Virus record (IMG/VR): IMGVR_UViG_3300032242_002944
Location: 1-59,348 of that record
From: a virus
DNA length: 59,348 bases
Strand: one strand, 5' to 3'
Both the position numbers and the translations under genes were made by a program. Every line of letters starts with the position of its first letter. Positions within the stretch are counted from its first letter, which is position 1. The notes below the pieces were generated by a model. The model made no database searches and was not told where the DNA came from. It saw nothing but the letters and a program-made list of their open reading frames with translations. This document shows positions 3,199 to 57,383 of the stretch, in pieces.

Positions 3199-3353
3199 CC
3201 GTCTATATACTTTGTCCGGAGGTCACTCGCAAGGACGCGAAGCGACTTTCCGACACGAAAGCGCGGCATACTGCGCATGATGTTGTACGCGTGCGACCGT
3301 GACACTCGCAGGAGCTGGCACACGGCGCGGACGGATAGGACTTCTAGGTGCAT
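3102..3353 (-). CDS. xis: Excisionase-like MerR/HTH_17 DNA-binding protein
   Basis: 83 residues; residues about 7-48 form the helix-turn-helix excisionase domain (SVRAVCQLLRVSRSHAYNIM, then FRVGKSLRVLASDL, with the typical wing). Its 3' end overlaps the integrase start by 97 bases, a tight int/xis arrangement that implies coordinated translation. The C-terminal tail beyond residue 50 is low in complexity and basic. Could direct excision or repress the int promoter; the family is used for both. Confidence 0.75.
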   Translation of the reverse strand: MHLEVLSVRAVCQLLRVSRSHAYNIMRSMPRFRVGKSLRVLASDLRTKYIDGCASMRSTEGTGLAGPKTASRKSDPAARKTAR

Positions 3354-3511
3354 CGGCTGCCCCCTTCGCTGTACCGTTCTAAAAGCAGACCGGTAGAGGG
3401 GATAGCCCGCGTCGTGAAGATTCCTCGTCGAACATACGAAGCTGGAGAGCCAAACAGCTCGCTATACCCGCGAGCCGCGACGTAGGCTGCCGCCAACCAC
3501 GCGGCGTTCAT
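3344..3511 (-). CDS. Tiny-ORF family member (55 aa), upstream of xis
   Basis: Starts MNAAWLAAAYVAARG and ends SRCT; aromatic and Arg-rich, with few acidic residues. The ATG shares bases with the stop of the preceding tiny ORF (ATGA), and the 3' end overlaps xis by 10 bases. It resembles the ORFs of the 43.6-47.0 kb array in size, composition and coupling. Function unknown. Confidence 0.55.
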   Translation of the reverse strand: MNAAWLAAAYVAARGYSELFGSPASYVRRGIFTTRAIPSTGLLLERYSEGGSRCT

Positions 3512-3660
3512 TGGAACCTGCTGACGTCTCGCGACGGGATGCGGGCATTGTGGACATACGAGATGGACGTGTCCCAGACGAATGAAATTCCTGGAAGCGG
3601 GTTGTCGCTCAGAACGCCTCGACAGAGGAGAACGCCCAGGCGGAGGAAAGGGGCGGTCAT
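3508..3660 (-). CDS. Tiny-ORF family member (50 aa)
   Basis: Starts MTAPFLRLGVLLC, very like the MTAAIIALAP and MTASIFGPAP starts of two array members at 44.1-44.3 kb, and ends SRFQ. Coupled by ATGA overlaps to the tiny ORFs on both sides. A central ISFVWDTS strand resembles ISFVGEWS in the upstream neighbour, which supports common descent. Function unknown. Confidence 0.6.
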   Translation of the reverse strand: MTAPFLRLGVLLCRGVLSDNPLPGISFVWDTSISYVHNARIPSRDVSRFQ

Positions 3661-3800
3661 TGGTGATGACTCCGTAGCGGTGCGAACAGGACGTGACCCT
3701 CGAACGTCGAACGGGACCACTCTCCGACAAACGATATCTGGACGTTGAGGTTTTTGGTTCGGGTTCTGAGGGCGCCCATGCGGAGGTAGTGTGGGCTCAT
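3657..3800 (-). CDS. Tiny-ORF family member (47 aa), first after the terminator
   Basis: MSPHYLRMGALRTRT start, ISFVGEWS core, SHHQ end; ATGA overlap with the next ORF. Its start codon lies only a few bases beyond the T-tract of the terminator of the recombination operon, and no promoter is visible between, so expression may depend on read-through. Confidence 0.55.
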   Translation of the reverse strand: MSPHYLRMGALRTRTKNLNVQISFVGEWSRSTFEGHVLFAPLRSHHQ

Positions 3801-8068: not shown

Positions 8069-8096
8069 AGCATAACACGCTAAGTATCTTCGGCAA
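8069..8096 (-). promoter_or_regulatory. Promoter for the 78-residue antisense gene
   Basis: TTGCCG, 16-base spacer, TATGCT, then seven bases to the ATG, so another near-leaderless start. Confidence 0.5.
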
Positions 8097-8124
8097 CCCC
8101 ACTTGACCAGCCGGCTCCCTAGAC

Positions 8125-8236
8125 TTACGCGCGCGCCCAGGAAAGACTTTCCCTCTAATACCATTCTTATAATCTATATAGATAGAGTATAGGAATAGGA
8201 AGGGAAAGGGAAGTTTTCGCGCACGCACGCGCGTAA
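8125..8236. repeat. AT-cored, GC-flanked inverted repeat element, copy 1
   Basis: A long imperfect inverted repeat with outer ends TTACGCGCG and CGCGCGTAA, pyrimidine-rich then purine-rich arms (CTTTCCCTC / GGGAAAGGGAAG) and an AT-rich centre (TTATAATCTATATAG). A clearly related copy lies at 47062-47172. It fills most of the gap between the antisense gene and the primase gene, just upstream of the primase promoter. Candidate replication origin, bidirectional control region or protein-binding hairpin. Confidence 0.75.
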
Positions 8237-8262
8237 CAACGGGATTAGGCAGTGTCAAGACG

Positions 8263-8291
8263 TTGCGACCACACCGGAGGGCGGCTAGAAT
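8263..8291 (+). promoter_or_regulatory. Sigma70-like promoter of the primase operon
   Basis: TTGCGA, 17-base spacer, TAGAAT. Unlike several others here it is followed by a 20-base stretch with a GGAG ribosome binding site before the ATG. Confidence 0.65.
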
Positions 8292-11560: not shown

Positions 11561-11637
11561 TGTTCAACGTAGCCCAAGCCCTCGTAGCCGTACTCGTGGC
11601 GTTTTGCCTTCTCGTGGCGGTGTCTGACGACCGATGA
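11557..11637 (+). CDS. 26-residue membrane peptide between hypothetical gene and polymerase
   Basis: ATGATG start overlapping the previous stop, a single hydrophobic helix (ALVAVLVAFCLLVAV) and a charged SDDR end. Its TGA overlaps the polymerase ATG (ATGA). It may be a real small membrane protein or mainly a coupling device for polymerase translation. Confidence 0.5.
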   Translation: MMFNVAQALVAVLVAFCLLVAVSDDR

Positions 11638-14378
11638 CGATCGCTTTTGACGTAGAGACCGTGCCATTTCGAGCCGGGCGGATGGCGCCGCAGCTCGTGG
11701 TCGTGTCGTGGTTCGACGGCACGACGCGCGGTCTCGTCAAGGTAGAGGACGCCGAACCCGTCGTAAGGAAGTGGCTCCTTGGTCCTGAATTCCTGGTTGC
11801 TCATAACGCCTCGTTCGACTCGACCGTCCTTTGCAACGCGTTTCCTGAGCATGTCCATCTCTGGTTTGATAAGTACCACAGGGGGGAGGTTGGCTGCACA
11901 ATGCTGCTGGCGCAACTTCACGACATCGCCAACGGCTGTTTTCGGGGGAGCTTCGATGATTCGGGTACCTACCGGAAGCGGCTCTACAACCTGTCGGACT
12001 GCCACCAGAGGCTATTTGGAACGTCCCTAGAAAAAGACGTTTGGCGGATGCGCTACGAGGAGTTTCTGAATGTTCCACTTTCTCAATGGCCCCAAGGTGC
12101 TAAGGCATACTCGGAATTGGACGCACTCGCTGCGTTCCGGGTGGGCGCCGCCCTCGGGCCGGTCAACGATTGGGCCAGGCAATCACGGTACGATTTCTGC
12201 CTCAAGCTGTGCTCTATATGGGGTCTTCGCACGGATATTCGGGCCGTTGAAAGCCTACGAGACCATCTTCTCCGGGAGCGAGCTGGGCTGGAGCAGCTAT
12301 TACGCGAGCTGCGGCTGGTCAGGTCAAGCGGTCAAAAAAACACAAAAGCCATCCGTGCCCGCGTTCGCTCCGGCGGCGGTTCGAAACTCACAAAAACGGG
12401 ACTTCTTGCGATCGACGCCGAAGCCTGCGAAGGTCTGGACGACGCGGCGCTGAAGATTTACAGCAAGTGGAGCGTGCTCGGCACGACGCTGGCCAAAGAC
12501 GTGCCCATGCTCCGTCTCGGCGAGACGTACCCGATCCACACGTCGTTCGGCCTCGCGGACAGCGGACGCACGACGAGTGCGAAGCCAAACTGCTTCAGCG
12601 GAGACACGGAGGTTCTTACGAGAAGAGGTTGGGTAGACCTTCGAACTTACGTCGAAAGCGGTAACACCGAAGAGGTAGCACAATTCCACACGGAGTCTCA
12701 AACGATATCGTTTACCGCCCCTATTGGCCGCGTCGTTGCTCGCGATGAGGTGTTGCACATAAAGAGTGACATATTCGTCAATTTGAAAGTAACAAAGAAT
12801 CACAGGTGCTTGCTTCAAAATCGAAAAACGTCAAAGTGGCGAGTTTTCGAAGGGGCAAACTACCCGTCCGACCACAAGCAGCACGGCGCTGGCACGTTCG
12901 TTGGCGGCACGACTCACTTGTCCGACGACGAGGTTGTAGTTCTGGCTGCTGTCCAGGCAGACGGGTCCTACCTCTGGCACGGGAGGAGCGCTGCGATACG
13001 TTTCGCGTTTTCCAAACAGCGAAAAGTAGAGCGACTCAAGTCAGCTCTCGAAAATCTCGGCGTAAAGTTCCGACTATCAAAGGCCGACGCTCGTGGTAAA
13101 CAGTATTTCTACATCCCTGAGTGCGATCTTGTTCGTTACGTACAAGCGCTCATGCCTCAGAAGAACTTTGGGTGGTGGGTGCTCGATCTTGACAGAGCAA
13201 CGCTTGATAAATTTGTCAACGAAATCTGGTTCTGGGACGGTTGCAGCACTAGAAACTCTCACTATTCTAGCAACGCGATCGAAAACGCCGAGATCGTACA
13301 AGCTGCCTGCGCATTGTCTGGAATCTCTTGCAAAATCCGCAAATACCACTCACACCTGGGCGCAAACACGAACTATCAAGTTGACAGAAAGCACAAGAGT
13401 TACAGCCTCACGACTAATACGCGAACGGAAAGCCTAGGCGAGCAGGACGTGTTTTGCGTTAGCGTCCCTTCGTCTTACTTGCTCGTCCGCACAGAAGGCG
13501 TGATCAGTGTAACCGGGAACTGTCAAAATTTCGGTAGAAGCGGAGGCGTACGTGGTTGTTTTATACCTCGCCAGGGGTTTCTGTTCGCTGCGGTCGATTT
13601 CCCGGGACTGGAGTTGCGCACCGTATCACAGGTCTTACTTGAAAAAGTCGGATGGTCCAAGCTCGCAAGCCGTATCAACAGTGGGGAAGACCCCCACATC
13701 GCGGTCGCGGCTATCATGGCGGGAGTCAGCTACGAGGACGCGTTCCGATTATATAACGAGGCTGACTCTAGGATAAGCGAGCTTCGACAATTCGGCAAAG
13801 CGGCTAACTTTGGCTTCCCAGGCGGCATGTCGGCGAAGACGCTCCAGGCGTCGTCCAATGCGAACCCGGACTTGCGCAAGAAGGGCATCACGATGACCCT
13901 CCTCCAGGCGGAAGAACTACGCGAGGCGTGGTTGGCGGCGAACCCGGAGTTCCATGAATATTTTCGATTTATCCGGTCTCTTATGCGCGCGGACGGGCTT
14001 TATGACGTACAGCATTTGTACTCCGGCCGCTGGCGCCGTGGGTGCAAGTACACGGAGGCGGCTAACACGTTGTTTCAGGGTCTCGGTGCCGACGTCGCCA
14101 AGCACGCGCTTTGGCTCGTCCAGCGCGCCTGCTACGCGAAGCCTGAGAGCCCGCTCTACAACTGCCGCACGGTGCTGTTCGTCCACGACGAAGTCGTCTG
14201 CGAGGTCCCCGAGAGCGACCCCATACCGCCCGCCAACGAGCTGAGCCGGCTCATGACCGTCGGTGCGAACAAGCTGCTGACGAAGGTGCCGCTGGAGACG
14301 ACCCCAGTGCTCATGCGTCAGTACGGTAAGTATGCCAAGCCGAAATTCAACGAACAAGGAGTCATGATTCCGTGGTAA
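11634..14378 (+). CDS. Family A DNA polymerase with in-frame intein
   Basis: 914 residues, 604 after splicing. The N-terminal 3'-5' exonuclease has DVET (Exo I), HNASFDS (Exo II) and YSELD (Exo III); no 5'-3' nuclease domain. The polymerase domain has motif A AAVDFPGLELR (Asp655, Glu660, with FPG replacing YSQ of the usual DYSQIELR), motif B R718-x3-K722-x3-F726-G, and motif C HDE. Phe for Tyr in motif B predicts altered nucleotide discrimination. The intein interrupts the conserved RTTSAKPN / QNFG stretch before motif A, a typical active-site insertion point. Replicative polymerase of the phage. Confidence 0.93.
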   Translation: MTIAFDVETVPFRAGRMAPQLVVVSWFDGTTRGLVKVEDAEPVVRKWLLGPEFLVAHNASFDSTVLCNAFPEHVHLWFDKYHRGEVGCTMLLAQLHDIANGCFRGSFDDSGTYRKRLYNLSDCHQRLFGTSLEKDVWRMRYEEFLNVPLSQWPQGAKAYSELDALAAFRVGAALGPVNDWARQSRYDFCLKLCSIWGLRTDIRAVESLRDHLLRERAGLEQLLRELRLVRSSGQKNTKAIRARVRSGGGSKLTKTGLLAIDAEACEGLDDAALKIYSKWSVLGTTLAKDVPMLRLGETYPIHTSFGLADSGRTTSAKPNCFSGDTEVLTRRGWVDLRTYVESGNTEEVAQFHTESQTISFTAPIGRVVARDEVLHIKSDIFVNLKVTKNHRCLLQNRKTSKWRVFEGANYPSDHKQHGAGTFVGGTTHLSDDEVVVLAAVQADGSYLWHGRSAAIRFAFSKQRKVERLKSALENLGVKFRLSKADARGKQYFYIPECDLVRYVQALMPQKNFGWWVLDLDRATLDKFVNEIWFWDGCSTRNSHYSSNAIENAEIVQAACALSGISCKIRKYHSHLGANTNYQVDRKHKSYSLTTNTRTESLGEQDVFCVSVPSSYLLVRTEGVISVTGNCQNFGRSGGVRGCFIPRQGFLFAAVDFPGLELRTVSQVLLEKVGWSKLASRINSGEDPHIAVAAIMAGVSYEDAFRLYNEADSRISELRQFGKAANFGFPGGMSAKTLQASSNANPDLRKKGITMTLLQAEELREAWLAANPEFHEYFRFIRSLMRADGLYDVQHLYSGRWRRGCKYTEAANTLFQGLGADVAKHALWLVQRACYAKPESPLYNCRTVLFVHDEVVCEVPESDPIPPANELSRLMTVGANKLLTKVPLETTPVLMRQYGKYAKPKFNEQGVMIPW
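12591..13520 (+). mobile_element. Intein with degenerate LAGLIDADG homing endonuclease
   Basis: Residues 320-629 of the polymerase reading frame. It begins CFSGDTEVLTRRGW (block A, Cys1), has the block B TKNH motif, an endonuclease region with LAAVQADGSY and WFWDGCSTRNS as the two LAGLIDADG-like helices, and ends SVTGN followed by Cys+1 of the C-extein. The penultimate residue is Gly instead of the usual His, which some inteins tolerate. Base composition is visibly richer in A+T than the flanking exteins, a sign of separate origin. Confidence 0.9.
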
Positions 14379-41939: not shown

Positions 41940-41956
41940 TGCTAAAATAATGGATG
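41936..41956 (+). promoter_or_regulatory. Leaderless promoter motif, copy 2
   Basis: TGCTAAAATAATGGATG: -10 TAAAAT, five bases, then the ATG of the metalloprotease. Same architecture and similar bases as the motifs before the VRR-NUC and transglycosylase genes. Confidence 0.55.
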
Positions 41957-42481
41957 CGGTTTGTGCTGTCTTTTCTTTGTCTTACGCTCCTCGCCTGCTC
42001 CGTTGCGACCGCGCCGCCGCCTAAGGCGCCTGCACGCCTTCTGCCTCGCGTGGTTTGGTCGGTGTCGAACAGTTTTATGTGGACCGAAGCCGGGCTCGCC
42101 GCCGTCCGGGATGGCGTGGGGGCAATTAACCGCGCGTGCGGGCGGGAGATTCTGCACGAGGGTCGCGGCGGCGTGGTCGTCGTTCAGCGGTTCGCGATGG
42201 AGGACGTAATCGGCGACGAGGAGAACGGCATCGTCCTCGGGCTCTATGACTCGGATGCGAACACCGTATCACTGTACCTACCCGCTACCGAATCGCCGGA
42301 GCTGTTCCATTCGGTGGTGGCGCACGAATTTTTGCACGCGCTTGGAGAGTCCCATTTCGATGGGCCGCCTGGCGTGTCCATCATGGCCCCGACCGTCGAC
42401 AAGCAGTCTCCGGGCGTGACCCGGCTGGATATCGAACGGTTGGGGCCAGGGTGGGAGTGCCCTAGTCTGGCCGCCCCTTGA
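41954..42481 (+). CDS. Metzincin-type zinc metalloprotease, predicted lipoprotein
   Basis: 175 residues. Signal peptide with lipobox LLAC (Cys15). Catalytic HEFLHALGESH: His124, Glu125, His128, His134, matching HExxHxxGxxH, followed by a Met-turn SIMAP (Met144). A secreted, membrane-anchored protease, more like matrixins than phage proteins. Plus-strand single gene between the late operon and a minus operon that encodes a second such protein. Near-leaderless start. Substrate unknown: surface or cell-wall protein degradation, exclusion of competing phages, or host benefit in lysogeny are possible. Confidence 0.82.
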   Translation: MRFVLSFLCLTLLACSVATAPPPKAPARLLPRVVWSVSNSFMWTEAGLAAVRDGVGAINRACGREILHEGRGGVVVVQRFAMEDVIGDEENGIVLGLYDSDANTVSLYLPATESPELFHSVVAHEFLHALGESHFDGPPGVSIMAPTVDKQSPGVTRLDIERLGPGWECPSLAAP

Positions 42482-42861: not shown

Positions 42862-43085
42862 GCGACAACGTCCTCCGGGATCATGGAATCGAACGAGTTC
42901 AGGTAGGCCCGCTCCGCGTGGAGCTGGGCGGCCATGGACGCCGCGTGCAACGTGCGGCTGACCTCGATCGGGGACGCCACGATGGCATACCACTGGCCGT
43001 TGGATAGCTGTCCCACAAAAAGACGAGTGGCCGGGTCCGGCTGCGCCTCCAGGTACGTAGATCGTTCGTTCCAGATCAGTAGCAT
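42858..43085 (-). CDS. Hypothetical 75-residue protein
   Basis: MLLIWNERSTYLEAQPDPATRLFVGQLSNGQWYAIVASPIEV start (short beta protein), Ala-rich helix at the end. Overlaps the upstream metalloprotease gene by 10 bases. No family recognised. Confidence 0.5.
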   Translation of the reverse strand: MLLIWNERSTYLEAQPDPATRLFVGQLSNGQWYAIVASPIEVSRTLHAASMAAQLHAERAYLNSFDSMIPEDVVA

Positions 43086-43558
43086 GGCCAGTGGTTCTCC
43101 TTGAGTTCGTTTCGTTGGTCGAACACATACGTTTTGGTCAGGTAAGGCGCCATCGGCGTGCCCTCCTTGTGGCCGAGGCCCAGAACGTGGCCTAGCTCGT
43201 GGAGAGCGATCTCATATTCCATTGTCTCGCAGCCGCCTTTGAAGTACATATCCCCCCCTACCCCGGGGGCCGCGTGGCCGCACTCGATGCCGCCATCGGC
43301 GGCGCTGGCGTCCGGTGGGCTCGGCCCCGCGTCGCCGAACACCATGAAGTTGGCGGTATACTCCCCTGGCGGGCACGTCCGGTATAGAATCTTGGACCCG
43401 CAATACGCGTTCCACGTATCGATGGCCTGGTCGATAGGCGCCTCGTCAATCGTCCCGACAGCCGCCACTCGCACGCAGTAGGGGTCGCGGTACGGGCTGT
43501 ATGAGCACGCAGCAAACAGGATGGCCAGGATCACAGCGACAGCAACGGCGAGTTTCAT
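43076..43558 (-). CDS. Second metzincin-type metalloprotease, predicted lipoprotein
   Basis: 160 residues from the ATG after a TATGCT -10 element (an upstream in-frame start is poorly supported). Signal peptide with lipobox FAAC (Cys18). Catalytic HELGHVLGLGH: His120, Glu121, His124, His130, then Met-turn TPMAP (Met136). Several further cysteines suggest disulphides outside the cell. Distinct from the 42.0-kb protein apart from the active site. First gene of a four-gene operon of unknown small proteins. Confidence 0.82.
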   Translation of the reverse strand: MKLAVAVAVILAILFAACSYSPYRDPYCVRVAAVGTIDEAPIDQAIDTWNAYCGSKILYRTCPPGEYTANFMVFGDAGPSPPDASAADGGIECGHAAPGVGGDMYFKGGCETMEYEIALHELGHVLGLGHKEGTPMAPYLTKTYVFDQRNELKENHWPCY

Positions 43559-43564
43559 GGTATG

Positions 43565-43592
43565 AGCATAGCTCAAACGCATCGGCTGTAAA
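43565..43592 (-). promoter_or_regulatory. Near-leaderless promoter of the second metalloprotease
   Basis: TTTACA, 16-base spacer, TATGCT, then CATACC and the ATG. TATGCTCATACCATG matches the corresponding stretch before the HExxH protein at 57.8 kb at 14 of 15 bases. Confidence 0.55.
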
Positions 43593-43728
43593 GGCCGAAG
43601 GCCCAATTAGCTAGGTTTTCACAGGACGAGCCGCTCGTGGCTAGGTATCGGGCGCCCGTCATCGACACGGGCATCCGGCGCCGCATCGTCGTCGACAGCC
43701 CCGGCACGTTGATGGACAGGTAGATCAT
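43573..43728 (-). CDS. Tiny-ORF array member 15 (51 aa)
   Basis: MIYLSINVPGL start, Arg-rich centre, GLYSRCV end. ATG shares bases with the previous stop (ATGA). Last ORF of the array; its stop lies inside the promoter of the metalloprotease gene. Confidence 0.6.
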   Translation of the reverse strand: MIYLSINVPGLSTTMRRRMPVSMTGARYLATSGSSCENLANWAFGLYSRCV

Positions 43729-43913
43729 TCGCAGGTGATCTGGCTCTGGCTCTGGAGGGCGGACGTGAGATAGCAGGTGAGGGACCATGTATATGCGGAA
43801 CCCGCAGAGCTGGTCCACATAGTGTATTCAAGCGTTTTGAACTTGGACATACGTGACTTGCACGTCACCGCGTGCGTGGACGCCAGGAAGTACGGGAGGC
43901 GGTACGTGATCAT
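43725..43913 (-). CDS. Tiny-ORF array member 14 (62 aa)
   Basis: MITYRLPYFLAST start, TWSLTCYLTSALQS segment, ITCE end. ATGA overlaps on both sides. Its N terminus is almost that of the preceding ORF (MITYIRLWW). Confidence 0.65.
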   Translation of the reverse strand: MITYRLPYFLASTHAVTCKSRMSKFKTLEYTMWTSSAGSAYTWSLTCYLTSALQSQSQITCE

Positions 43914-44047
43914 TTGTAGGTCGTCACTAGGACTGCGCACCAACTGGTCCGCGAGCGTATGCGGTCACCGGAAAAAAACGAATGCCCTGCGCGGCAGCAA
44001 ACCGAGCGGCTCGGGGTGTTCCACCATAGGCGGATGTAGGTGATCAT
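43910..44047 (-). CDS. Tiny-ORF array member 13 (45 aa)
   Basis: MITYIRLWWNTPSRSVCC start, Arg/Ser/Trp/Cys-rich, TTYK end. ATGA overlaps on both sides. Confidence 0.65.
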   Translation of the reverse strand: MITYIRLWWNTPSRSVCCRAGHSFFSGDRIRSRTSWCAVLVTTYK

Positions 44048-44208
44048 ACGCACGCGCTCCACAAACAGGCGGGCACCCAGTGCCGGATGCCTGTATAGTT
44101 TTCGTGCGCGACGTACGAGAACGTCGTCTGGCTGTAGAAACGATGGGTGGCCCAAAAGACGGACTTACCTGTTGCGGCCGGGGCGGGGCCGAAGATGGAG
44201 GCTGTCAT
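44044..44208 (-). CDS. Tiny-ORF array member 12 (54 aa)
   Basis: MTASIFGPAPAATGKS start, aromatic middle (HRFYSQTTFSYV), WSACV end. ATGA overlaps on both sides. N terminus parallels member 11. Confidence 0.65.
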   Translation of the reverse strand: MTASIFGPAPAATGKSVFWATHRFYSQTTFSYVAHENYTGIRHWVPACLWSACV

Positions 44209-44339
44209 CGGTACCGGCTCCACAGAAAGGTCGGGTTCGCGCCCTTGAAGCGTGACGTGCCCGAATACCAAGCGTAATCTGAATCCACGCACGACCGGCC
44301 CGAGAACAAGGGGGCGAGCGCGATAATGGCGGCGGTCAT
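44205..44339 (-). CDS. Tiny-ORF array member 11 (44 aa)
   Basis: MTAAIIALAPLFSGRS start, DYAWYSGTSRF middle, LWSRYR end. ATGA overlaps on both sides. Confidence 0.65.
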   Translation of the reverse strand: MTAAIIALAPLFSGRSCVDSDYAWYSGTSRFKGANPTFLWSRYR

Positions 44340-44488
44340 TGGTACCTGCTGTACAGCTCGTCGGAGTAGTTTTCCATGTGGGCGGTATAGCTCCACTCGC
44401 CCGTGTAGGAGTGCCAGTAATTGCAATGGCTGCGGAACATGCCAACGTCTGTGAGTACGTAGTACCGGAGGTTTAGGTAGGTCAGCAT
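44336..44488 (-). CDS. Tiny-ORF array member 10 (50 aa)
   Basis: MLTYLNLRYYVLTDVG start; twelve of fifty residues are Tyr, Trp or Phe; YSRYQ end. ATG overlaps the tail of the methyltransferase gene and the stop overlaps member 11, so the second half of the array is translated behind the methyltransferase. Confidence 0.65.
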   Translation of the reverse strand: MLTYLNLRYYVLTDVGMFRSHCNYWHSYTGEWSYTAHMENYSDELYSRYQ

Positions 44489-45222
44489 TCGCGCAGCCTA
44501 TGGAGCATGTTTTCGTAAATCCCAGGGTTGCGTTCGATGACGACGAACCGGCGGCCGTGCTTGCGGGCGGCCACAGCGGCCGTGCCCGAGCCGGCGAACA
44601 TATCGACGACCCATTCTCCAGGATTCGTGTGGGCCAGGATGGGGATCTCAAACAGCTTGACGGGTTTCTCCGTCGGGTGGGTCTTGCCCCTCAGAATCTC
44701 CGTGATGTCCGTCCACACGTTCGTGCGGCGGTAGAATTCGCTCTTGGCGGGATACTTCTTATTGTATCCTGCATACGGGCGTTTCGTGTCCAGGAGCGGA
44801 ATATTGAACAGCCTGGGCCTGTCTGCGTTGCAGAAATACGCGCACTCTTCCCGCGTGAATAAATACTTGTGCGGGGTCCCGTACGCGCGCTTTTTGGCCC
44901 AGGTTATGAGATCGAGCATTCGAAGTGGAGTACGTTCTTCACACTCACGTATGAAGTCGAAAAACGGTCTGTGACCGACCTTCCCCACCCCGCCCCACAC
45001 ATAGAACGCCGCCCCCCTAAGTGCGGCGCTTGAATAGTGCTGTAGCGTCGTTGCAAGCTCTTTTGGGTCCAGTACATCCCATTCCTCTTTCGTGATACCG
45101 CCGTACGGCGGGTCCGTGACGACTAGGGCGATCGGGTTCTGCGTAGCCGCGGCGATGACCGCAGGATCAGCAGCGTCGCCACGGATCGCCAGGCTGCCGT
45201 CGCTGAACGTGTGCGTGATCAA
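44482..45222 (-). CDS. Beta-class DNA methyltransferase (N4-C / N6-A)
   Basis: 246 residues, TTG start overlapping the stop of the 32-residue membrane gene (TTGA). Catalytic TDPPY near residue 38 precedes the SAM-binding FAGSGTAAVAA near the C terminus, with THPTEKP just before it: the circular order of beta-class enzymes. Probably protects phage DNA from restriction. It lies in the middle of the tiny-ORF array. Confidence 0.88.
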   Translation of the reverse strand: MITHTFSDGSLAIRGDAADPAVIAAATQNPIALVVTDPPYGGITKEEWDVLDPKELATTLQHYSSAALRGAAFYVWGGVGKVGHRPFFDFIRECEERTPLRMLDLITWAKKRAYGTPHKYLFTREECAYFCNADRPRLFNIPLLDTKRPYAGYNKKYPAKSEFYRRTNVWTDITEILRGKTHPTEKPVKLFEIPILAHTNPGEWVVDMFAGSGTAAVAARKHGRRFVVIERNPGIYENMLHRLREC

Positions 45223-45317
45223 TCGAAGTACCCCATGAGGGCGCCGAGGATGACGATGGTCGCGCCGGCCAGGATGATGCCGGTTACAGCAAGGGCGAGG
45301 AGCGCGAGGATGAACAT
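45219..45317 (-). CDS. 32-residue membrane protein
   Basis: MFILALLALAVTGIILAGATIVILGALMG: one or two membrane segments. ATG one base after the previous stop, stop overlapping the methyltransferase start. Function unknown. Confidence 0.55.
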   Translation of the reverse strand: MFILALLALAVTGIILAGATIVILGALMGYFD

Positions 45318-45318
45318 T

Positions 45319-45498
45319 TTAGAAATCACTCCAGGGGGTGGGTAGGGCGGGCATGGTGGGGAACTGAGGCAGCGTCGGCGGGTCGGTGTGGGAGGTGGGG
45401 TCGGGCTCGGGGATGCACTCCGTGCAGACGTACGTGTCCATGGGCTCGTGGCGGCGGTCGGTGCGGGCGCCGCAGAGATAGCAGGTTCTCTCGCTCAT
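45319..45498 (-). CDS. 59-residue zinc-finger protein
   Basis: CYLCG and CTEC pairs, a rubredoxin/zinc-ribbon-like knuckle in the first 30 residues, then a Pro/Thr-rich tail. Preceded by its own TTGACC-16-TAGAAC promoter with six bases to the ATG. Not a tiny-ORF family member by composition; function unknown. Confidence 0.6.
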   Translation of the reverse strand: MSERTCYLCGARTDRRHEPMDTYVCTECIPEPDPTSHTDPPTLPQFPTMPALPTPWSDF

Positions 45499-45504
45499 AG
45501 CGGT

Positions 45505-45532
45505 GTTCTAGCACGGTTTGGGCAGTGGTCAA
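45505..45532 (-). promoter_or_regulatory. Near-leaderless promoter of the zinc-finger gene
   Basis: TTGACC, 16-base spacer, TAGAAC, six bases, ATG. Separates the two halves of the tiny-ORF array. Confidence 0.5.
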
Positions 45533-45693
45533 TAGGACGAGCACTGGTACTGGTTCACGCAGCTCCAGCCGTCGTTCGAGAACGACAGCGCCGGCTCGGA
45601 CGTTAGGAGGGGGATGTATCCGGGGCCTCGCAAGAACGTGGAGTGGTGTTGGCATCCCGGTCGGAATCTCCCGTGGACGGCAAGGTACATCAT
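45529..45693 (-). CDS. Tiny-ORF array member 9 (54 aa)
   Basis: MMYLAVHGRFRPGC start, GWSCVNQYQCSSY end. ATG overlaps the previous stop; last ORF of the first half of the array. Confidence 0.65.
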   Translation of the reverse strand: MMYLAVHGRFRPGCQHHSTFLRGPGYIPLLTSEPALSFSNDGWSCVNQYQCSSY

Positions 45694-45827
45694 CGGGACC
45701 AGTGCGCGATGCAGACGGCCAGCGTGCGGTGGTGGTGGTAGGTGCACCACGGGGCTTGTGTGTAGCTCATGGCACTTAGGTAGACGGTCGGGGGCACGAG
45801 CGGGCGGTACTGGAGGATATGGATCAT
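45690..45827 (-). CDS. Tiny-ORF array member 8 (45 aa)
   Basis: MIHILQYRPLVPP start, shared MIHIL with member 7; AHWSR end. ATGA overlap before, ATGATG after. Confidence 0.65.
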   Translation of the reverse strand: MIHILQYRPLVPPTVYLSAMSYTQAPWCTYHHHRTLAVCIAHWSR

Positions 45828-45982
45828 TCGCATGTGCTCGCGAGTTGGATGAGCAGGCCGGAGCCGACGAGGCTGGTGTTCTGGACGACGCGGGTTTCGC
45901 GGTCCGTCCGGGAGTGGGAGCGGGTGTGGGAGCGCGACGTGTAGAAGGGGTTGAACCGCCAGTGGGATAGGATGTGGATCAT
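45824..45982 (-). CDS. Tiny-ORF array member 7 (52 aa)
   Basis: MIHILSHWRFNPFY start, Ser/Arg/His-rich centre (SRSHTRSHSRTDRET), LASTCE end. ATGA overlaps on both sides. Confidence 0.65.
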   Translation of the reverse strand: MIHILSHWRFNPFYTSRSHTRSHSRTDRETRVVQNTSLVGSGLLIQLASTCE

Positions 45983-46149
45983 CGCGCAAAAAAGAACAAT
46001 GAATCTTTGTGTCGAATGAAGCTGTACATGACATTGTAATCAGCCTGATTTGTAAACCTCATCATTAGTTTCACGCCAAACCTGCCGATGCGGGCTTTGA
46101 TCACAGAACTATCTGCGGGAGGGCGCAGAGGGTAGAGCGTTAGTAGCAT
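45979..46149 (-). CDS. Tiny-ORF array member 6 (56 aa)
   Basis: MLLTLYPLRPPADSS start, RFGVKLMMRFTNQADYN middle, FFFAR end. Start lies within the last codons of member 5. Confidence 0.6.
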   Translation of the reverse strand: MLLTLYPLRPPADSSVIKARIGRFGVKLMMRFTNQADYNVMYSFIRHKDSLFFFAR

Positions 46150-46316
46150 GTCGTGTGCTCCAGAAATAGCCGATCCGAAGGCGGTGTGAGGATGTATACA
46201 ATACCGCTTCGGTCACTCGTAGTCGGATATCGGTTCGTGACGGATCTTTGCTTTCCCATAGCTATTCGGGATTCGCCTTTGATAGGCCACCTGCGGCGGA
46301 GGTAGGTTACTTGCAT
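46140..46316 (-). CDS. Tiny-ORF array member 5 (58 aa)
   Basis: MQVTYLRRRWPIKG start, SGIVYILTPPSDRLF strand, HTTCY end. Overlaps member 4 by ten bases. Confidence 0.6.
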   Translation of the reverse strand: MQVTYLRRRWPIKGESRIAMGKQRSVTNRYPTTSDRSGIVYILTPPSDRLFLEHTTCY

Positions 46317-46453
46317 ACGGAATACATGAAATTTGCCCGCGTGTAGGCGCGGTCGGTCCAGCCTACAACCCAATAATTGTGCGCGAATTGGTACGGGTGC
46401 CTTTGGAGGTAAAGCCTCGACCCGCTTTTGATACGCGGTATTATGGCCATCAT
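46307..46453 (-). CDS. Tiny-ORF array member 4 (48 aa)
   Basis: MMAIIPRIKSGSRLYL start, NYWVVGWTDRAYTRANF middle, YSVCK end. ATGATG start overlaps the previous stop. Confidence 0.65.
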   Translation of the reverse strand: MMAIIPRIKSGSRLYLQRHPYQFAHNYWVVGWTDRAYTRANFMYSVCK

Positions 46454-46647
46454 CGGTACACGCTCCGGCGGACGTAGAACTCCGGCGTGTTGATATGGCT
46501 GCCCAGGTTGCGGGCGTAATCGAACCCCGGCGCGCGGGTCCGCCGGATGCGGCCGTAGTGCTTCGGGAAGGTGAGCAGTTGGGGCGGCACGCTCAGCGCC
46601 GAGCGCCGGGTGGGGACGTACAGTGTGGCTGTATAGGGGAGGATCAT
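46450..46647 (-). CDS. Tiny-ORF array member 3 (65 aa)
   Basis: MILPYTATLYVPTRRS start, RIRRTRAPGFDYAR middle, RSVYR end. ATG overlaps a TGA that ends the out-of-frame tail of member 2. Confidence 0.65.
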   Translation of the reverse strand: MILPYTATLYVPTRRSALSVPPQLLTFPKHYGRIRRTRAPGFDYARNLGSHINTPEFYVRRSVYR

Positions 46648-46698
46648 CGGAACCGCGACCAGGTGGGCCAGGGGCAGATGGTGTCGCAGTTGCTTCGA

Positions 46699-46830
46699 CT
46701 ATCGCCGCAGCAGTACGACCCGATGCCGGGTGCGGGAGTACATGGCCCGAAGACCGATGGGCCACTCCACGGGGTGGGACAGAGTGCTGCGGGAATCGTA
46801 CGGGTTGACGACGCGGTGGAGGGAGGTCAT
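46699..46830 (-). pseudogene. Tiny-ORF array member 2, probably frameshifted
   Basis: MTSLHRVVNPYDSRST start in the family style, but the frame ends early at TAG after 43 codons. A shifted frame continues from about base 46715 to the TGA at 46644-46646, giving a tail YCCGDSRSN...WSRFR that matches the tail of member 1 (YCSAPLRSS...WTTFR) and re-forms the ATGA junction with member 3. Either a real indel or an assembly error. Confidence 0.5.
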
Positions 46831-46988
46831 CGGAACGTGGTCCAGGCGATCACGGGAGTGTCAAACGACAGGTAGTCGCCATCGATACTGGATCGTAGGG
46901 GGGCGGAGCAGTATCGCCAGTCGGAGCGGGGGCTGACTTTTACACGGATTCCGCTCCGGGTGAAATATCCGGCGTAGGGTGGGAACAT
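46827..46988 (-). CDS. Tiny-ORF array member 1 (53 aa)
   Basis: MFPPYAGYFTRSG start, SDWRYCSAPLRSS middle, AWTTFR end. First ORF of the array; ATG is six bases after a TACCAC -10, no Shine-Dalgarno sequence. Stop overlaps member 2 (ATGA). Confidence 0.65.
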   Translation of the reverse strand: MFPPYAGYFTRSGIRVKVSPRSDWRYCSAPLRSSIDGDYLSFDTPVIAWTTFR

Positions 46989-47023: not shown

Positions 47024-47061
47024 ATTGTTTGGAAGGGGGTTGACAAGTGTTGTGAGGCGAT

Positions 47062-47172
47062 TTACGCGCGCCCGCGCGGAAACTTTCTACTCTACTACTC
47101 TCTAATAATCTATATATATATAGTATAATAGTAGTAAAGGGAAGAGAGTTTTTCCTGCGCGTGCGCGCGTAA
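47062..47172. repeat. AT-cored, GC-flanked inverted repeat element, copy 2
   Basis: Outer ends TTACGCGCG and CGCGCGTAA, centre TAATCTATATATATATAG, arms ACTTTCTACTC and GTAAAGGGAAGAGAG. Same plan and many of the same words as the element at 8125-8236. It occupies the gap between the leftward tiny-ORF array and the rightward gene cluster. Confidence 0.75.
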
Positions 47173-47263
47173 GTCTTGGCCGAGAGTCTGTCAAGGGGGG
47201 TGGACGATTATTTGCGAGGGTGAGGCTGATGTGGTTCTTTAGAGTCGGAGGTTCCAGTTAGCG

Positions 47264-57113: not shown

Positions 57114-57383
57114 TCACGTCCTTCGACGTGAGTTCGTTGAAACCGAGCCGTTGCCGTAGCCGTCGCCGTAGCCGTAGCCGTAGCCGTAGCCGTCGCCGTT
57201 GCCGTAGTCGTCGCCGTAGCCGTAGCCGTCGCCGTAGCCGTAGCCGTCGCCGTAGCCGTAGCCGTCGCCGTAGCCGTAGCCGTAGCCGTCGCCGTTGCCG
57301 TTGCCGTTGCCGTTGCCGTAGCCGTAGCCGTAGCCGTGGCCGTAGCCGTAGCCGTGGCCGAAAGGCCCGATGTGCGTAGACAT
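57114..57383 (-). CDS. Gly-Tyr repeat protein encoded by hexanucleotide repeats
   Basis: 89 residues: MSTHIGPFGHGYGYGHG, then about 65 residues of alternating Gly with Tyr, Asn or Asp, and an SVSTNSRRRT end. ATG overlaps the preceding stop by one base, a genuine operon position. Low-complexity GY/GN/GD chains form flexible, self-associating or amyloid/silk-like material; function here unknown. The repeat unit is 6 bp, so copy-number change keeps the frame. Confidence 0.6.
   Translation of the reverse strand: MSTHIGPFGHGYGYGHGYGYGYGNGNGNGNGDGYGYGYGDGYGYGDGYGYGDGYGYGDDYGNGDGYGYGYGYGDGYGNGSVSTNSRRRT
57148..57360. repeat. Hexanucleotide tandem repeat (GGCTAC and variants)
   Basis: Roughly 35 units of GGCTAC/GGCGAC/GGCAAC on the minus strand. 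Prone to slippage and to assembly error, so exact length should be treated with care. Confidence 0.9.

Follow-up and report, generated by a model that had tools for sequence, protein, structure and literature searches.

Known clusters of small phage genes

Clusters of small genes are common in phages. The host-takeover module of phage SPO1 comprises 26 genes with individual products, distributed over several operons, and neither a common C-terminal motif nor a paralogous expansion is known to us within it. This module is a run of mostly small phage genes that are expressed early and act on host processes (PMC6873191). Gene pairs coupled by termination-reinitiation meet at ATGA or TGATG junctions (PMC6728339), and genes coupled in this way often encode the subunits of heteromeric complexes (PMC10666635). 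The IMG/VR virus record IMGVR_UViG_3300032242_002944, which was analysed over its entire length of 59348 bases (the window), carries three arrays of very small open reading frames (ORFs), a, b and c, with the same junction geometry. Termination-reinitiation is usually described for pairs, whereas the runs found here reach nine, six and three microgenes. The arrays resemble the SPO1 module in being runs of small phage genes, but a C-terminal signature is common to most of their members, which are also chained by ATGA overlaps. They also resemble the anti-CRISPR (Acr) and other anti-defence loci with an Aca regulator, in that small, diverse genes stand in tandem at accessory positions in a temperate phage, with a helix-turn-helix (HTH) gene after array c. 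Unlike in Acr/Aca loci, this HTH gene directly precedes the integrase gene and gives a weak, excisionase-like HTH_17 match (E 8e-5, under the cut-off), and no member matches PADLOC, PHROGs or Pfam, in which no homology to a known Acr, Aca or counter-defence protein was found. We file the arrays as a case of clustered small phage genes outside the anti-CRISPR and SPO1-type groups, and tentatively read them as an expanded set of early or accessory microproteins that would serve in host takeover or counter-defence.

Junctions and coding potential

Array a consists of nine ORFs (a1–a9, 46988-45529) and array b of six (b1–b6, 44488-43573), all of 43–65 codons and on the minus strand; all 15 lie where a first-pass annotation, made from the sequence alone, had placed them. 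Array c, with three ORFs at 3800-3344 on the same strand, was missed by that annotation and emerged from a chain search over the whole window, giving a total of 18 members (Table 1). A strong terminator-like hairpin (3836-3809, minus strand) lies about nine bases before the start of c1, which is almost without a leader. Within arrays a and b, ten junctions are 4-nt ATGA overlaps (a1/a2, a3/a4, a6/a7, a7/a8, a8/a9, b1/b2, b2/b3, b3/b4, b4/b5 and b5/b6) and two are 10-nt overlaps (a4/a5 and a5/a6). The region contains 15 ATGA or TGATG links, with a longest chain of 6; 300 Markov shuffles gave 0.8 links on average, never more than 5, and no chain beyond 3. Such serial overlapping of stop and start codons is that of a putative translationally coupled operon. 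The first-pass annotation had counted at least eleven ATGA or TGATG junctions, far beyond chance; the excess over the shuffles is clear, but ten ATGA junctions are present as annotated, and the eleventh exists only through a second frame of a2. The annotated frame of a2 stops at 46699, 51 nt short of a3, and the second open frame (46826-46646, minus strand) ends ...PWPTWSRFR* right at the ATG of a3. As this second frame carries the C terminus of the family (WSRFR), a2 is most plausibly a member with one indel, either a sequencing error or genuine decay.

The GC content of the members by codon position is 0.48, 0.52 and 0.77, the third-position value comparing with 0.73–0.88 in the large genes of the phage. 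On a synonymous-codon score, the annotated frame surpasses the other sense frames in all 15 ORFs of arrays a and b, and is the best of all six frames in 11 of them; for a4, a6, b3 and b4, one antisense frame is slightly better. Codon-position GC and synonymous bias thus support the view that the array ORFs are real genes of the phage, probably translated in vivo. That they are instead spurious ORFs, due to chance in GC-rich DNA or to plus-strand genes read in antisense, appears extremely improbable: long antisense ORFs do run over the arrays, as is usual at 60% GC, and the four ORFs with a better antisense frame would fit, but the chaining statistics, the sense-frame codon bias of most members and the enrichment of the C-terminal motif described below all speak against it. 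The composition of the members is unusual, as had been noticed at first pass: by comparison with the large phage proteins, they are rich in Tyr (7.4 vs 3.6%), Trp (2.9 vs 1.4%), Arg (9.9 vs 5.2%) and Cys (2.7 vs 0.8%), and poor in Asp plus Glu (4.2 vs 10.3%).

A shared C-terminus and partial paralogy

The members had been described as sharing an N-terminal strand and an [ST]-x-[YFC]-x ending, and these two observations fared differently. Residue 2 (I/T/M) is set by the overlap, because the second codon in ATG-A.. must start with A. NN-ATGA likewise sets the last residue (R/K/E/V/Q), since the final sense codon must end in A. Columns 2 and −1 exceed chance because the ATGA overlap forces them, and they are not evidence of homology; the only other N-terminal column above chance is position 5 (Y/I/L/F), modestly so (z 3.8). 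The shared N-terminus was rejected as proof of homology and is largely an artefact of the overlap.

The strongest columns are −4 [ST] (z 7.3) and −2 [YFC] (z 6.6). The ending recurs in 12 of the 17 intact members but in none of 144 control ORFs (ATG ORFs of comparable size in the window that are not members), with no enrichment at neighbouring offsets; its last residue is the one forced by the overlap. Neither −4 nor −2 is forced in the members with a 4-nt overlap, whereas in a4, a5, b6 and c3, with their 10-nt overlap, the Cys at −2 is partly forced by ATGC, so only the Ser/Thr at −4 is informative. The motif is absent at the other genuine ATGA overlaps of the phage. Its distance to the stop codon is constant in both overlap classes, and it is, therefore, a property of the protein end rather than of the next start site. 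It is written in varied codons (AGC, TCC, ACG; TAC, TTC, TGC), although TGG AGC doubles as a GGAG-like ribosome-binding sequence. The motif was also considered as a mere ribosome-binding signature, an explanation weakened by this variety of codons and by the anchoring to the stop codon; pressures at the protein end and on ribosome binding may both act on it. Five small, ordinary-looking genes that are chained elsewhere in the window (57050-56032, minus strand) lack the motif and provide a within-genome control.

Several members are clearly related over their length (alignment z 7.4 for b2/b3, 4.6 for c1/c2, 4.1 for b2/c2 and 3.7 for b3/c2), the last two pairs apparently representing paralogy across arrays. 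Over all member pairs, z exceeds 3 in 12 of 136, and its mean is 0.95, compared with 0.15 for control N termini; no interior motif beyond those of shuffled sequences emerged from a Gibbs search. The ratio of nonsynonymous to synonymous divergence (dN/dS) is roughly 0.3–0.5 in the paralogue pairs, with dS saturated, and dN is lower than dS in four of five comparisons, a7/a8 being the exception. The proposal of a rapidly diverged, duplicated microprotein family of no recognised kind is supported by these paralogues, by the C-terminal motif and by the lack of database matches; all-against-all comparison links b2 with b3, c1 with c2, and c2 with both b2 and b3, but leaves most pairs without significant full-length similarity, and the case for a single family embracing all members, including the 15 of arrays a and b, is made only by their chaining, their length and composition, and the motif at the C-terminus. 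A fair statement is that the members have their end, size, composition and gene arrangement in common, that several are demonstrable duplicates, and that others may be too diverged to tell.

Young or decaying small ORFs of little function, kept by easy ATGA coupling, might look similar if the likeness of their C-termini came from duplicated junction DNA, with its signals for ribosome binding and overlap. Short direct repeats of about 20 nt do surround several junctions, the W-S-R codons (TGG AGC CGG) supply the next ORF with its GGAG-like sequence, a2 looks broken and the interiors have no common motif. We nevertheless consider this explanation doubtful, given a motif in varied codons, fixed relative to the stop in both the 4-nt and 10-nt classes and absent at other genuine ATGA overlaps, and given the excess of dS over dN in most paralogue comparisons, saturated and rough as these are.

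Searches for homologues and predicted structure

No homologue of the members was found in Pfam, PHROGs, PADLOC, the PDB, phages or plasmids. Searches of PADLOC, PHROGs and Pfam at E<=1 gave only two chance-level matches, tblastn gave nothing at E<=10 against phages (17 members) or plasmids (nine members, from arrays b and c), and Rfam gave nothing. Arrays with other numbers of ORFs, which the first-pass annotation had proposed to seek in related phages, were not found either in the scans and loci described next. DNA patterns for junction pairs and triples, which require particular junction sequences and spacings and are thus of limited sensitivity, revealed no array in IMG/VR, neither among the matches listed from a first scan nor with two stricter patterns, which retrieved chance matches, a recurrent presumed ribonucleotide reductase gene and other ordinary genes. 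In 379 Myxococcota genomes, the junction pattern gave six chance-like matches, at a rate similar to that of the control. None of 160 loci from a primase alignment contained an array, and 4.7 Mb of loci yielded a single cluster of three ORFs ending in the motif, at a locus that the pattern itself had picked.

Single-chain structure prediction, which had been proposed at first pass as a check, gave weak models that do not demonstrate a shared fold. With AlphaFold, an alignment of 17 rows with b3 first gave a predicted local distance difference test score (pLDDT) of 59 and a hairpin in the C-terminal half, and one of nine rows with b1 first gave a pLDDT of 70, a predicted template modelling score of 0.38 and four strands, including residues 45–48. 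A fold search with the b1 model returned no meaningful match (best E 0.15 among viral structures and 0.9 in the PDB). A beta-rich fold is, at this stage, a suggestion only.

The main rival to a host-directed role is that the members assemble as subunits into a mixed oligomer, such as a virion accessory, a membrane complex or an inhibitory complex, with coupling setting the stoichiometry and the C-terminal strand providing the subunit contact. Coupled genes often encode such subunits (PMC10666635), a strand-like C-terminal motif is common to the members, and the b1 model places residues 45–48 in a strand, with low to moderate confidence. However, there are three separated arrays of nine, six and three members of unequal length, and their bodies have no common motif, which would be unusual for subunits that need to fit together. 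We regard this possibility as unlikely.

Gene neighbourhood

The arrays occupy three accessory spots, one before the HTH and integrase genes and one on either side of a DNA methyltransferase gene. Around array b, a 32-aa hydrophobic peptide, the methyltransferase, b1–b6 and a putative, weakly matrixin-like lipoprotein form a tight chain, in which the end of the methyltransferase gene overlaps the start of b1 by 7 nt and b6 overlaps the possible start of the lipoprotein gene by 10 nt, as c3 does the start of the HTH gene. A gap of 30 nt separates the end of array a from the next gene. The arrays could conceivably be regulatory leader ORFs, the chain coupling or delaying the translation of the Zn-ribbon/methyltransferase, lipoprotein and HTH genes. 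The overlaps of b6 and c3 with downstream starts and the coupling of the methyltransferase to b1 would be in line with this, but a single leader would suffice, nine, six and three ORFs with a conserved protein C terminus would be superfluous, and the gap after array a does not fit; we judge it very improbable. A second, weakly matrixin-like putative lipoprotein is encoded on the opposite strand near the terminase gene (41954-42481, plus strand).

About 40 bases from the start of array a lies R2, a near-palindrome of about 120 bp with an AT-rich core, of which R1 is the only other copy in the window. Alignment of R1 with R2 gives scores of 85 and 96, the highest score in shuffles being 32. The window contains TTGAC-N18-TACGCG exactly four times, once at each of the two inward-facing ends of either copy. 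The folding of R2 as single-stranded DNA has a z of −6.4, and cumulative GC skew reaches its minimum (~8 kb) and its maximum (~49 kb) near the two copies. The pattern of this dyad element was not found in the 379 Myxococcota genomes. R1 and R2 may be replication elements or paired promoter elements; if R2 is a promoter or operator, array a would be co-regulated with a replication gene and would probably be expressed early.

TABLE 1. Members of the three arrays and neighbouring features in the window (AF2, AlphaFold2).
Feature	Position	Strand	Remarks
a1	46827..46988	-	53 aa; C-terminus TTFR; 4-nt ATGA overlap with a2
a2	46699..46830	-	43 aa in this frame; probably frame-shifted
a3	46450..46647	-	65 aa; C-terminus SVYR
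a4	46307..46453	-	48 aa; C-terminus SVCK; 10-nt overlap with a5
a5	46140..46316	-	58 aa; C-terminus TTCY; 10-nt overlap with a6
a6	45979..46149	-	56 aa; C-terminus FFAR, without motif
a7	45824..45982	-	52 aa; C-terminus STCE
a8	45690..45827	-	45 aa; C-terminus HWSR, without motif
a9	45529..45693	-	54 aa; C-terminus CSSY; end of array a, no downstream overlap
b1	44336..44488	-	50 aa; C-terminus SRYQ; AF2 all-beta model, pLDDT 70
b2	44205..44339	-	44 aa; C-terminus SRYR; paralogue of b3
b3	44044..44208	-	54 aa; C-terminus SACV
b4	43910..44047	-	45 aa; C-terminus TTYK
b5	43725..43913	-	62 aa; C-terminus ITCE
b6	43573..43728	-	51 aa; C-terminus SRCV; overlaps possible start of M10-like lipoprotein gene
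c1	3657..3800	-	47 aa; C-terminus SHHQ; paralogue of c2
c2	3508..3660	-	50 aa; C-terminus SRFQ
c3	3344..3511	-	55 aa; C-terminus SRCT; 10-nt overlap with HTH gene
Two-CxxC Zn-ribbon-like small protein between arrays	45319..45498	-	DUF7573 E 5e-5, below Pfam cut-off
32-aa hydrophobic peptide, likely membrane (from sequence)	45219..45317	-	4-nt overlap with methyltransferase
N6/N4 DNA methyltransferase	44482..45222	-	PF01555 E 1e-24; b1 start overlaps its stop
Matrixin-like lipoprotein after array b	43076..43582	-	start 43582 or 43558; Peptidase_M10 E 9e-5, just below cut-off
R2 near-palindromic element before a1	47030..47205		inward-facing TTGAC-N18-TACGCG at both ends
R1, other copy of the element	8085-8265		upstream of primase-helicase

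Source phage and likely host

The window encodes a distant large terminase (TerL), a portal, a head protein, a family-A DNA polymerase, a primase-helicase, a helicase and a tyrosine integrase. Matches of the portal and a head-tail adaptor point to a podovirus-like temperate phage. It has no close known relatives. TerL had a single match, at 27%, among 50,697 phage records, in which the portal had none; searches of IMG/VR by TerL, capsid or portal found no close relatives, and a two-sequence TerL alignment used as query gave one match, at 22%. Relatives of TerL with 34–37% identity are present in a Sandaracinaceae metagenome-assembled genome and in a second Myxococcota genome, making a Myxococcota (myxobacterial) host likely; the contigs that carry them contain no array. 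The DNA polymerase gene (11634-14378, plus strand) is apparently interrupted by an intein; its residues ~319–635 match PhoH-like and ribonucleotide reductase models, which probably themselves carry inteins. A Gly/Tyr/Asn repeat protein of 89 codons (GYGYGNGNGNG...) is encoded at 57114-57383 on the minus strand.

Possible roles of the arrays

Host takeover, anti-defence and a mixed oligomer were the candidate roles suggested at first pass. In the host-takeover or counter-defence reading, some 18 lineage-specific microproteins would form one expanded set, co-produced by termination-reinitiation on polycistronic messages. Each would be tiny and probably beta-rich, with a conserved C-terminal strand that either completes the fold or binds to one partner common to the members, and the Tyr/Ser/Trp/Arg-rich, acid-poor bodies would have diverged in such a way that separate copies bind separate host or defence targets. 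Jointly, the members would constitute an early battery beside the phage DNA methyltransferase, the proximity of which fits an anti-restriction theme. We count in favour of this reading the chaining, the coding signal, the stop-anchored motif in both overlap classes, the paralogy with its rough dN/dS, the accessory placement, the primase-type element heading array a and the interface-like composition. It is further supported by the fact that small early phage proteins hitting host processes are a known mode of action, as in the SPO1 module.

Several points weigh on the other side. The fold, early timing, targets and function of the members are all inferred, and the members resemble no known anti-defence or takeover protein. 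R2 might be an origin rather than a promoter, in which case the argument for early expression, which covers array a only, falls. Array b stands upstream of the terminase and is followed by the lipoprotein gene, which makes late expression possible. Finally, the weak AlphaFold models leave a shared fold unsupported.

A bolder and, in our estimation, improbable extension is that of a combinatorial repertoire, in which a single very small scaffold, its C-terminal strand invariant and its body free to diversify, would be produced from tandem microgenes and assemble into mixed oligomers; if this were true, a single phage would show many binding surfaces simultaneously. We found no counterpart for one phage with eighteen chained microproteins that are alike in a stop-anchored C-terminal motif and in little else. 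If the arrays are not expressed, they illustrate the extent to which coupled ORFs can persist without function. If they are expressed, they would provide small inhibitors or binders ready for use, and a natural example of a gene family that expanded and diverged inside one viral genome.

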